A stretch of DNA of 39,913 nucleotides, taken from positions 1 to 39,913 of the forward strand of contig CAIPFN010000359.1 of the NCBI GenBank assembly GCA_903864265.1, in the 5' to 3' direction. Below, one piece after another: positions 7,265 to 39,913 of the stretch (position 1 is the first letter of the stretch; each line of letters begins with the position of its first letter). The stretch comes from an uncultured Bacteroidales bacterium (GTDB lineage: Bacteria; Bacteroidota; Bacteroidia; Bacteroidales; UBA4417). The notes below the pieces were generated by a model, which saw nothing but the letters and a program-made list of their open reading frames with translations, did not search any database and was not told the DNA's origin. Made by a program: the position numbers and the translations under genes.

Positions 7265-7441
7265 ATGGGAATTATTATTCTTTATCTCGTAATTGGATTT
7301 ATTTACTTCGTACCATCATTTAATGCCTACAAAAGGCCAGAGTTCTGGGCAACATTTGTCGTTAATCTTTTATTTGGATGGACAGTTGTTGGATGGATAA
7401 TAGCCCTGGTTATGAGCTGGCATAAAAATGAAAAAAAATAA
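7265..7441 (+). CDS. Superinfection immunity protein (Imm-like, PF14373 family)
   Basis: Two TM segments with the family-like pattern FVPSFNAYKRPEFWATFVVNLLFGWTVVGWIIALVMSW. Start refined to ATG 7265 (track start 7259 is TTG). Confidence 0.75.
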   Translation: MGIIILYLVIGFIYFVPSFNAYKRPEFWATFVVNLLFGWTVVGWIIALVMSWHKNEKK

Positions 7442-7487
7442 ACATCACTCAGCATCAATTTTACATTTTCATTGTATATTTACCCTA

Positions 7488-7511
7488 TCGTTTAGCCAGA
7501 CATCTAAACGA
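7488..7511 (+). promoter_or_regulatory. Leader hairpin upstream of antirepressor
   Basis: TCGTTTAG-CCAGACAT-CTAAACGA, perfect 8-bp stem. Confidence 0.75.
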
Positions 7512-7531
7512 AGTTCCGATACGACCAAACC

Positions 7532-7702
7532 ATGTCCAGAGTTCATATTACGTACTTAATAGGGGAAACCCTCGTTTATCTTGGCTCAGCAATGAGCCAG
7601 AAGCCTTGGTCGGCTTTGGAACGGATGAGCGAGGGTTTCCCCATTAAGGAGACAAATTATGGAAACGACAGTAACCACTGTTGCCCGTGTCAACGAAGTT
7701 GA
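7532..7702 (+). CDS. Possible leader ORF (56 aa) overlapping the antirepressor start; absent from the ORF track
   Basis: ATG 7532 to TGA 7700-7702: MSRVHITYLIGETLVYLGSAMSQKPWSALERMSEGFPIKETNYGNDSNHCCPCQRS; out of frame with ORF 7659. Confidence 0.35.
   Translation: MSRVHITYLIGETLVYLGSAMSQKPWSALERMSEGFPIKETNYGNDSNHCCPCQRS
7555..7648 (+). ncRNA. Structured leader element (three-way-junction fold) upstream of antirepressor
   Basis: P1: CTTAAT(a)GGGGAAACCCTCG (7555-7574) with CGAGGGTTTCCCCATTAAG (7630-7648); P2: TGGCTCA-GCAA-TGAGCCA (7582-7599); P3: AAGCC-TTGGTC-GGCTT (7601-7616). Confidence 0.7.
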
Positions 7703-8222
7703 CATTCAAATCATCATGAACGGCGAAAAACAAGTTGCCGTTAAACCAATTTGCCAGGCTCTTGGCATCGCATTCGAAGCCCAATTTGTAAAGCTGAAAA
7801 CTGATCCGATTTTGAGTTCAGTTGTTATGACCAGCATAACAACTGGATCGGATAAAAAGCAGTACGAAATGGTCACCATTCCGCTTAAATTTGTTTTTGG
7901 ATGGTTGTTTCGTATCGACAGCCGCAACGTAAAACCCGAAGCCAGGGAAGTTGTGTTAAAATATCAGTTGGAATGTTACAACGCCCTTTACAACTACTTT
8001 ACCCGTCACGACGAATACCTGGAGTGGCGCGATAAGGTTATCGCCGAAAGGCTCACGCTCTATGATGCCGCCCGGTTGGAATTCCGCGACGCAAAGGATA
8101 AAGTGCAGGATGCCCGCGACCTGCTCAACGAAGCCCGCAAAATTACCGAGGAAGCTTATTTTGCAGATAAGGACCAGCTGCGTATCCAGTTTGGTGAAGA
8201 AAGCGAGGTAACCAATGCCTGA
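7659..8222 (+). CDS. Phage antirepressor, P22 Ant N-terminal-domain type
   Basis: N-terminus VDIQIIMNGEKQVAVKPICQALGIAFEAQFVKLKTDPILSSVV...MVTIPLKFVFGWLFRID fits PF10547-type antirepressors. Confidence 0.8.
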   Translation: METTVTTVARVNEVDIQIIMNGEKQVAVKPICQALGIAFEAQFVKLKTDPILSSVVMTSITTGSDKKQYEMVTIPLKFVFGWLFRIDSRNVKPEAREVVLKYQLECYNALYNYFTRHDEYLEWRDKVIAERLTLYDAARLEFRDAKDKVQDARDLLNEARKITEEAYFADKDQLRIQFGEESEVTNA

Positions 8223-8463
8223 AGCCAAAAACATCATGCACATAGGCAAAGTGGTTCTCCAGGACGAATGCCTTCACTATATCGAAACATTGCAGGAAAA
8301 TGATAACGAAGGTATCGACAGCCGTACGCGAACCATGCTCGAAGCTATCATGTTTCTGACCATACTTCGCGAAGGATTAGGAACAGGTAAAAAAGACCGG
8401 TTCGAATATGTAATTGAAAGCCTGGCCCATATGTCCGAAGAATTCGAACAACTCAAAGCATGA
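8215..8463 (+). CDS. Small hypothetical protein co-transcribed with antirepressor
   Basis: 82 aa, overlaps antirepressor stop; followed by terminator. Confidence 0.5.
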   Translation: MPEAKNIMHIGKVVLQDECLHYIETLQENDNEGIDSRTRTMLEAIMFLTILREGLGTGKKDRFEYVIESLAHMSEEFEQLKA

Positions 8464-8503
8464 TAATATAAGCGTATCCATTGCAGGATTCCCCACGCTT
8501 ATC

Positions 8504-8534
8504 AGCCCCGCCCACAAAGCGGGGCTTTTGTTTT
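8504..8534 (+). terminator. Rho-independent terminator
   Basis: AGCCCCGC-CCACAAA-GCGGGGCT then TTTGTTTT. Confidence 0.9.
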
Positions 8535-38320: not shown

Positions 38321-39820
38321 ATGTATAATAATGAGCAGGTCACATTCAACATGGCCACCATGCCTGCACGCGTCGAAGCTTTGCAGGATACTGTTTTAAC
38401 GATCCTTCCCCAGTGTGATCTGCTCAATATTTACCTCAATAACTTCGATGAAGTGCCGGCCTTCCTGGTGCATCCGAAAATAAAAACCTTCCTGGGGAAA
38501 AAACACAAGGGAGATCTCGGAGATGTCGGGAAATTCTATAAAGTAGCGAACCAGAAAGGATACATCTTCACTGTTGACGACAAAATATTGTACCCTCCCG
38601 ATTATGTACGTAAGATGGTTCAGACCATTGAGCGCACCGGGAGAAAAGCCGCTGTTTCGAACCATGGCCATAACTTTCATACAAACAGGCCATCCAGCTC
38701 TTATTACTTTGATATCGCCAAAGCATTTCATTACCAGTCGGCCAGCGAACTGACGTTTGTGCATAATGTCGGGACCGGTGTACTGGCATTCCACAGCGAT
38801 ACGCTTATGCTGGATTTATCCTGGTTCCCGCATTCGAATATGACTGATATTTATTTCAGCCTGGAGTGCCAGAAGCGGAATATCCCGCTGGTCATCCACC
38901 CGCACGCGAAAGGATGGCTGAAGTTGGGAACCAAACACGACGAGAATTTCTCAATACACGCTTTTTGTAACAGGAAAGACGGGTTTCAGACGAAGGTAAT
39001 CAATGCTTTCTCCTGGAAGATTATAAGCTGCAAAGTAGAACCGTTATTCCCGGTCAGAATCGGATTCGAAGAAAGCCTGGAAGTACGGATAGGTGAACTG
39101 AACTGCAGCGTTTTTTCGCCTGAACTGGCCGTAATTGTGCCTGTTTTCAATAACCTGGAATTCACGCGCAAGCTTATCGAAGGTTTAAAGCAAAATACCT
39201 TTTCTCCTTATACACTTATAATCATTGATGATGCCTCCACGGATGGTACTATTGAGTATATAAGTAAGCTGAAAGCGACAGTTCCGCTTATTTACTACTA
39301 TAATGAAGTTAACAGGGGCGTTAATTATTCCTGGAACAAGGGAATCCGCATTGCCAGAAGCATAGGAGCCGAATATATGGCAATACTGAACAACGACCTG
39401 GAGTTAGCGCCCAAATGGGATCTTCCGCTTAAAAATAAGCTGGATGATGAAAACATAGGAATCGTGAGCCCTTATTCCACTTATGGCAACCAGTTACACA
39501 GGAGATTCCCCCTGGTGGGATCGGTAAACCCTTTGGGACTTGAAATTTTGGGTTGCTGTTTCATGTTCAGGAGCAGTTTGATCGATCGTATCGGTTATGT
39601 TCCTGAAGATTTACGGCATTATTATGGCGATAACTGGTTCCAGGATATCACAAAAGAGGCCGGCATGCAGGTCGTTTATGCGCCGGAAAGCCGGGTGCAT
39701 CATTATTACCAGCAAACAACTAGCAAAACGCGGCAGAATGAAATTGTAACCCACGATAAAAAGGCTTATGAAACCATACTTATGGATGGTATGGAACAGC
39801 ATATACACTTCAAAGCATGA
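38321..39820 (+). CDS. Two-domain glycosyltransferase (C-terminal GT2)
   Basis: C-terminal LAVIVPVFNNLEFTRKLIEGL...LIIIDDASTDGTIEY...AILNNDLELAPKWD; N-terminal domain has GYIFTVDDKILYPPDYV. Confidence 0.82.
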   Translation: MYNNEQVTFNMATMPARVEALQDTVLTILPQCDLLNIYLNNFDEVPAFLVHPKIKTFLGKKHKGDLGDVGKFYKVANQKGYIFTVDDKILYPPDYVRKMVQTIERTGRKAAVSNHGHNFHTNRPSSSYYFDIAKAFHYQSASELTFVHNVGTGVLAFHSDTLMLDLSWFPHSNMTDIYFSLECQKRNIPLVIHPHAKGWLKLGTKHDENFSIHAFCNRKDGFQTKVINAFSWKIISCKVEPLFPVRIGFEESLEVRIGELNCSVFSPELAVIVPVFNNLEFTRKLIEGLKQNTFSPYTLIIIDDASTDGTIEYISKLKATVPLIYYYNEVNRGVNYSWNKGIRIARSIGAEYMAILNNDLELAPKWDLPLKNKLDDENIGIVSPYSTYGNQLHRRFPLVGSVNPLGLEILGCCFMFRSSLIDRIGYVPEDLRHYYGDNWFQDITKEAGMQVVYAPESRVHHYYQQTTSKTRQNEIVTHDKKAYETILMDGMEQHIHFKA

Positions 39821-39913
39821 GCCGGAAGACCAATCTGGATAAATTCGAGGCCGTAATGTTCGACGACCGCAAAGATCTTAACCATCTTACGCCTGTAGAA
39901 CAGGATCAGGTAA
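39773..39913. repeat. Terminal direct repeat, copy 2
   Basis: Identical to 1-141 by direct comparison. Confidence 0.97.

Follow-up and report, generated by a model that had tools for sequence, protein, structure and literature searches.

The leader RNA ahead of the antirepressor-like gene in the window (the whole analyzed stretch of 39,913 nucleotides) was assigned by comparative searches to a conserved family of RNAs from Bacteroidota phages. In the window it spans positions 7488 to 7651; this and all features of the leader and its cassette given below are on the plus strand. The family comprises 17 members, namely the window, 14 IMG/VR phage loci and two bacterial genomes (covariance model). 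Since the hairpin P3 and the two long-range helices PK1 and PK2 are all kept in every relative, the RNA is regarded as one pseudoknotted fold on a three-way junction. The function that we favor, by a modest measure, is that of an attenuator acting in cis and coupled to translation, which would be locked by the pseudoknot and would control a phage cassette made up of a promoter, the RNA, one or a few small genes and a terminator. Whether the antirepressor gene is switched on probably depends on the RNA fold itself.

Identification of the RNA family

Homologs of the antirepressor were collected first by a protein search of IMG/VR and Bacteroidales genomes, and the same RNA was seen upstream of several of them when the upstream regions were inspected. 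The set was enlarged by DNA-pattern scans of IMG/VR and by a covariance model (R1) built from five sequences, resulting in the first 15 distinct members (the window, L009, L011, L012, L013, L014, L015, L016, L026, L040, L092, L097, L098, L100 and L106). A second model (R2), which contained no information on PK1 or PK2, identified L113 (E = 7.5e-19) and L114 (E = 4.7e-13) in 395 genomes of the same order. The orientation of the RNA is constant in all members, and the leader segment is present as a single copy in its genome.

Four model hits (G675, G737, G725 and G821; L103, L104, L115 and L116) were rejected as simple hairpins without P2/P3 or pseudoknots, and two pattern hits (L107 and L108) were chance matches without a model match. 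The hairpin at L115:1500-1575, located in an unrelated Bacteroidota genome, has the same GGGGAAACCCTT/AAGGGTTTCCCC arms without P2/P3 or pseudoknot and is probably a repeat or a terminator.

Rfam 15 gave zero matches at gathering score in the window and in L002 and L004-L008, which have related antirepressor genes but other leaders. The window was the one class A locus (this RNA family) in that scan, and its class A relatives were recognized with the covariance models built here. At relaxed thresholds, the Rfam search returned chance hits and nothing else. A comparison with Rfam, including the C4 antisense RNA, had been suggested by the sequence-only reading, a first inspection of the letters and open reading frames; it yielded zero gathering matches in the window. 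The leader had no match in the phage database using blastn, and no description of the RNA was found in the open-access literature on antirepressors with pseudoknots and on structured phage RNAs in Bacteroidetes. The cultured Polaribacter phage Leef_1 carries a related antirepressor and lacks such an RNA. As judged from these sequence and literature searches, with no Rfam 15 match to the window, the family appears to be previously undescribed.

Fold and covariation of the three-way junction

The region 7550-7655 folds at −59.0 kcal/mol compared to −28.3 ± 3.2 kcal/mol for shuffled sequences (z = −9.6). The main stem (7555-7574/7630-7648, with a bulged A7561) extends inwards through 7575-7580/7624-7629 to a total of 25 bp and forms P1. 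Its 5′ strand (7555-7580, CTTAAT-A-GGGGAAACCCTCGTTTATC) is supported by folds and covariation, and the base ATTAAG (7643-7648) of its 3′ strand (7624-7648) overlaps the Shine-Dalgarno sequence of the main gene. P1 encloses two hairpins, P2 (7582-7599) with a GNRA tetraloop (GCAA) and P3 (7601-7616). A GNRA loop (GCAA or GAAA) is visible in P2 of most members. The 6-nt loop of P3, TTGGTC (7606-7611), is the 3′ strand of PK2 and carries a YUNR (U-turn) motif. The main stem with its bulged A, the GCAA hairpin, the second hairpin and the 5′ hairpin described below had all been recognized by the sequence-only reading, and each is found in the sequence at the positions it gave.

For the 36 pairs of P1, P2 and P3 in 15 sequences, 97.9% of all cells are paired compared to 76.5% in shuffles, in an alignment that was fitted to the covariance model and therefore somewhat favors the structure, although R1 was built from just five of the 15 members. 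Changes on both sides were observed for 24 of these 36 pairs, the number of double-changed cells was 109 (33.7 in shuffles) and the covariation score was 0.640 (0.223 in shuffles). None of 500 shuffles matched the alignment in any of five structure measures. When the pairing partners were slid by one to three columns, at most 58% of the cells were paired. Among the single helices, helix 1 of P1 is paired in 95.5% of the cells and shows compensatory changes, P2 has changes on both sides in 6/6 pairs and P3 in 5/5 pairs, the latter with 100% of the cells paired. The P1-P3 three-way junction is conserved. This comparative evidence (0/500 structure shuffles, and 0/20000 permutations for each of PK1 and PK2, see below) excludes chance. 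The prediction of an elaborate structured leader RNA was thereby borne out, and the absence of covariation, which had been named as an outcome that would speak against it, did not occur.

The pseudoknot helices PK1 and PK2

PK1 is formed by GTTCC (7513-7517) and GGAAC (7618-7622) and was present in 15 of the 15 members tested, with 13 sequences. It connects the joint between P3 and P1 to a strand 4-6 nt upstream of the PK2 strand. PK2, likewise found in 15/15 members (8 sequences), pairs the P3 loop with the strand directly ahead of the leader start codon; in the window, the helix consists of (C)GACCAA (7522-7528), which ends 3 nt before the leader start, and TTGGTC(G) (7606-7612). Between the 3′ strands of the two helices lies GGCTT (7612-7616), which serves as the 3′ strand of P3.

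Both helices vary in sequence. The variants include GACCAA/TTGGTC, CGCCAA/TTGGCG, TCAAGT/ACTTGA, ACGAG/CTCGT and GACTAA/TTAGTC for PK2 and GTTCC/GGAAC, CGTCA/TGACG, GAGTC/GACTC, TAAGC/GCTTA and TGCTA/TAGCA for PK1. The mean helix lengths of cognate strands were 6.7 and 5.1 bp, compared to 4.2 and 3.3 bp for non-cognate combinations. The observed sum was reached in 0 of 20000 permutations of the 15 members for PK1 and in 0 of 20000 for PK2, and in 1/20000 and 0/20000 when only distinct types were considered. In addition, both helices were found in the two members not used in defining them, L113 (CGACCAA/TTGGTCG and CTTAG/CTAAG) and L114 (CCGCCAA/TTGGCGG and CTACC/GGTAG).

The sequence-only reading had described a single 14-bp helix between 7513-7528 and 7606-7622 that crosses the main stem. 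The crossing pairing is real, but it consists of two helices instead of one. That reading had also left a choice between mutually exclusive folds and a pseudoknot, of which the pseudoknot was confirmed; bistable alternative folds are not needed and were ruled out, as P3 and PK1/PK2 are conserved together and coexist in all relatives.

The P3 loop reads UUGGCG in 9 of the 17 members, and different loops with a YUNR motif occur elsewhere in the family. In a title cited in PMC10724649, a UUGGCG loop motif is named in connection with antisense binding for the plasmid ColIb-P9. The likeness is probably a convergence on a U-turn loop.

Promoter, 5′ end and strand of the RNA

A −7 box of the Bacteroidota type TAnnTTTG was identified at 7475-7482 (TATATTTA) and assigned to the promoter of the cassette. 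In the window it deviates from the consensus at the last base and is accompanied by a weak −33 box. Boxes that match TAnnTTTG or come close to it are present at a fixed distance from P1 in 14 of 15 members, 76-81 nt upstream of P1 in those with the 5′ hairpin and 42-50 nt in those without it. Because of this fixed placement, transcripts should begin at the 5′ hairpin (P0) or at PK1, the starts being derived from the position of the box.

P0 (7488-7511) folds 7488-7495 onto 7504-7511 (8 bp) and is limited to 11 members, which form a subgroup with an extended 5′ end. Pairing is possible between its loop (7499-7503) and the leader start region (7532-7536), as the sequence-only reading had noted for the window. 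The contact reads GACAT/ATGTC in the window and L026 and GAACAT/ATGTTC in L009, L015 and L113. It recurs with covariation in only part of the P0 subgroup (498/20000 permutations, approximately 0.025) and is therefore suggestive only.

In P1, 83 of 396 pairs are G-U pairs on the plus strand. Since the opposite strand would have A-C mismatches at these places, the plus-strand RNA is the selected molecule. The covariance model scores the window at 106.9 bits on the plus strand and 30.5 bits on the minus strand. No conserved promoter for an antisense RNA was found on the minus strand.

The leader ORF and the Shine-Dalgarno sequence of the main gene

The leader ORF (7532-7702, 56 codons) overlaps the RNA structure and also extends 44 nt into the main gene. 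An overlap of this frame with the structure and, usually, with the downstream gene is found in the family as well, in agreement with the sequence-only reading. The leader start codon is located 0-5 nt after PK2 in 15/15 members (ATG; TTG in L092), and in 14/15 the frame runs past P1 without a stop. The 10 members that start in frame 0 all have this frame open, compared to none of the five that start elsewhere (Fisher exact 1/3003, 15 members, phylogeny not corrected), and the openness therefore follows the frame of the start codon. As L106 has a leader stop inside P3 (+52) and L114 lacks an ATG beside PK2, reading through to the Shine-Dalgarno sequence is not universal. The leader stop is located at most about 80 nt from the main start, on either side, in 15/15 members. 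The synonymous fraction of the leader was 0.16 in frame and 0.21/0.22 in the other frames; this, together with the frame relative to P1 that varies among members, rules out the leader peptide as a real small protein.

The Shine-Dalgarno sequence AAGGAG of the main gene (7646-7651) was identified from the sequence and is partly paired in P1 according to the folds. The region is fully paired by the base of P1 in L013, L014, L016, L026 and L092 and partly in the window, where the occlusion is partial because only AAG of AAGGAG is paired. The pairing between the P1 base and this region is maintained through compensatory changes (helix 1 of the alignment, and folds). It had been proposed that the 3′ strand of the main stem reaches toward the antirepressor start, and ATTAAG at its base indeed overlaps AAGGAG.

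Cassette, cargo and genomic setting

The main gene (7659-8222) encodes an antirepressor-like protein with a P22_AR N-terminal domain (PF10547; hmmscan E = 4e-30), and P22 Ant was among the tblastn hits of this protein. It is followed by a second gene (8215-8463) for a protein of 82 aa with no Pfam family, homologs of which are located after the antirepressor gene in L016, L026 and, as a fragment, L009. A hairpin resembling an intrinsic terminator (8504-8526; AGCCCCGCCCACAAAGCGGGGCT and TTTGTTTTGT) closes the cassette, which thus consists of promoter, RNA, two genes and terminator amid late genes in the window. The leader itself is flanked by an Imm_superinfect gene and the P22_AR_N gene, within the region of the virion genes. 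The former, directly upstream of the cassette (7265-7441), encodes a superinfection-immunity membrane protein (PF14373, E = 6e-13).

An antirepressor is present in the cassette of 11 of the 17 members, directly after the RNA in 5 and after a small gene in 6, a share that is biased upwards because most members were found through the antirepressor. The RNA is not limited to antirepressor genes, since it heads other small genes in 6 of 17 members. The cargo of L092 (9899-10078), L106 (1380-1574) and L114 (1958-2152) belongs to a shared family of approximately 60 residues with the motif LW....(M/V)(I/V)LV.(D/E)D.F; the L106 protein had no Pfam match. The operon of L097 carries a KilA-N protein.

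The placement of the cassette was compared between the window (7400-8530), L012, L014, L016, L026 and L094. In some phages it precedes the tape-measure gene, whereas in others it lies between the terminase and portal genes. This varied placement in related phages indicates that RNA and cargo move as a cassette, like a movable moron. The window carries an exact terminal direct repeat of 141 bases (1-141 and 39773-39913) and therefore probably represents the complete circular genome of a phage, with a size of approximately 39.8 kb. The contig was binned with a 3.6-Mb assembly.

A second class of structured leaders precedes the same antirepressor gene at L007:3809-3985, L008:3810-3990 and L002:3798-3990. 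It has a promoter-proximal long stem and a crossing nested GCCGCG/CGCGGC (or GCGTTG/CAACGC) helix, followed by a T-run. Its P1 3′ strand could alternatively pair with the antirepressor start, and an exact ATGTCAAAAGAG repeat is present in L002. This class had no Rfam match, and no further copies of the motif of L007 and L008 were found.

Proposed mechanism and alternative explanations

In the proposed attenuator, PK1 and PK2 would tie the 5′ end to the P3 loop and the P3-P1 joint and occlude the site at which ribosomes enter the leader ORF, 0-5 nt ahead of its start codon. The main-gene Shine-Dalgarno sequence is at the same time paired with the base of P1, so that the folded RNA would represent the OFF state. 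A ribosome could start on the leader ORF before P3 is transcribed, or once PK1/PK2 have been opened by something; transcription kinetics alone could suffice to open the pseudoknot. By passing the 5′ strand of P1 and P2/P3, this ribosome would open P1, and the main gene would then be initiated through coupling or reinitiation. The act of leader translation, not its peptide, would be under selection. Much more tentatively, the RNA might be a portable control module heading swappable late-region cassettes of Bacteroidota phages, with a kinetic lock that requires no trans factor. Ribosomes would then load on the leader only during the approximately 75-90 nt of transcription before P3 appears, after which the pseudoknot would shut the leader permanently, and each transcript would be translated once or a few times.

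The main rival, although we regard it as unlikely, is a transcription attenuator, in which the upper P1 stem and a U-run form an intrinsic terminator. Translation of the leader would keep this stem from forming, so that transcription could continue into the cassette, and termination would yield a stable RNA of some 130-160 nt. In 16 of 17 members the upper stem, with an energy of −23 to −41 kcal/mol when P2/P3 are included, is followed by 4-6 T, and the output may therefore be transcription termination instead of translation in most relatives. Moreover, the fourth T faces a G and is kept as a G-U pair in 14/15 members, although G-C pairs better (columns 17/103). However, the window has just TTT, then CCCC, the stem encloses a branched loop of approximately 60 nt, which is unusual in terminators, and the main-gene Shine-Dalgarno sequence extends into the base of this stem, an overlap for which a pure terminator would have no need. 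Less likely again is a switch of the kind known from riboswitches, autogenous leaders and antisense-controlled plasmid replicons, with a metabolite ligand, a phage protein (e.g., the antirepressor) or an antisense RNA binding the pseudoknot or the P3 loop. It would fit the compact fold, the GNRA tetraloop, the loop-based pseudoknot and the YUNR motif of the P3 loop, the UUGGCG of 9/17 members being the antisense-binding motif of ColIb-P9 as named in the title cited in PMC10724649. A ligand pocket or a fixed protein site is argued against by the pseudoknot sequences, which vary freely, and by the lack of a strongly conserved unpaired core beyond the AAA of P1 and the loops; no conserved promoter for an antisense partner was found on the minus strand. 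Because the cargo varies, the antirepressor cannot simply regulate itself in every member.

An element without any switch, in which the pseudoknot protects the 5′ end of the messenger or the RNA acts in trans, is improbable. The position of PK1 at the 5′ end in compact members, and the 5′ hairpin added in others, would suit it, but the fixed leader start codon, the frame-tracking ORF and the paired Shine-Dalgarno sequence would be left unexplained. It is hardly conceivable that the element is a DNA palindrome (invertible element, miniature transposon or recombination site) which folds incidentally, as might be assumed from the long near-perfect inverted repeat and the 30.5 bits of the reverse strand. 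The strand-specific G-U pairs, the constant orientation in all members and the pseudoknot covariation outside the palindrome all contradict it, and the strand asymmetry (106.9 compared to 30.5 bits) together with the single copy in its genome led to the rejection of a palindrome or mobile element.

Comparison with known systems

The leader works most like the control of C4-icd-ant and of IncI repZ and is a member of neither, since it has no RF01695 match, the order of its elements is reversed and its helices act in cis. In the C4 system, two stretches of the RNA pair with the ribosome-entry region of an upstream frame, and ant depends on that frame. Similarly, the leader RNA and an overlapping upstream frame (7532-7702) are placed ahead of and into the antirepressor gene (7659-8222), and the complementary stretches pair at the ribosome-entry region of this frame, 0-5 nt before its start. 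The resemblance in logic to P1/P7 that had been pointed out is thus supported, without an Rfam or C4 match: C4 (RF01695) gave no match at E values up to 5 in 7300-7900 and no gathering-level match in the window, L002 and L004-L008. Unlike in C4, the complementary stretches are downstream of their targets in the same molecule and form a pseudoknot, a reversal of the C4 order; the leader peptide is not conserved, the cargo goes beyond ant and the phylum is another one. The P1 antirepressor operon, C4 repression and Icd have been described (PMC8201110, PMC8198154), and C4 is a processed 77-nt antisense RNA according to a title cited in PMC8546580.

With the IncI-alpha/IncB repZ leaders, as far as they are represented by the titles on the ColIb-P9/pMU720 repZ (repA) leader pseudoknot cited in PMC10724649, the RNA appears to share a leader frame, a Shine-Dalgarno-sequestering stem, a UUGGCG/YUNR loop and a long-range pseudoknot to CGCC(AA). 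The PK partner is located upstream of the leader start in all members tested and should inhibit, and an antisense promoter was not found on the minus strand of the leader RNA loci. In repZ of IncI/IncB plasmids, by contrast, the loop is upstream, its partner lies just before the main-gene Shine-Dalgarno sequence and the pseudoknot activates. The sar RNA of P22 is a separate antisense RNA controlling ant. By analogy, the leader would likewise act at the RNA level on a P22_AR-type antirepressor situated among late genes, but with its control elements in cis. In classical attenuators (trp, erm), the structure that forms depends on whether the leader ORF is translated. The proposed mechanism would be analogous in this respect, and differs in that the leader peptide sequence is irrelevant and that the leader's own start would be locked by the pseudoknot.

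Significance of the leader RNA family

The family adds a well-supported RNA with tertiary structure in a phylum for which little is known of RNA-based control. In P1/P7 and P22, the antirepressors are under the control of antisense RNAs. An unrelated group of phages appears to use a self-contained pseudoknot instead, which suggests that RNA locks on antirepressors have been invented repeatedly, and this lock appears to be reused for other genes of the cassettes. The architecture of two locks, on the leader start and on the main-gene Shine-Dalgarno sequence, could give a compact expression-control part for Bacteroidota.
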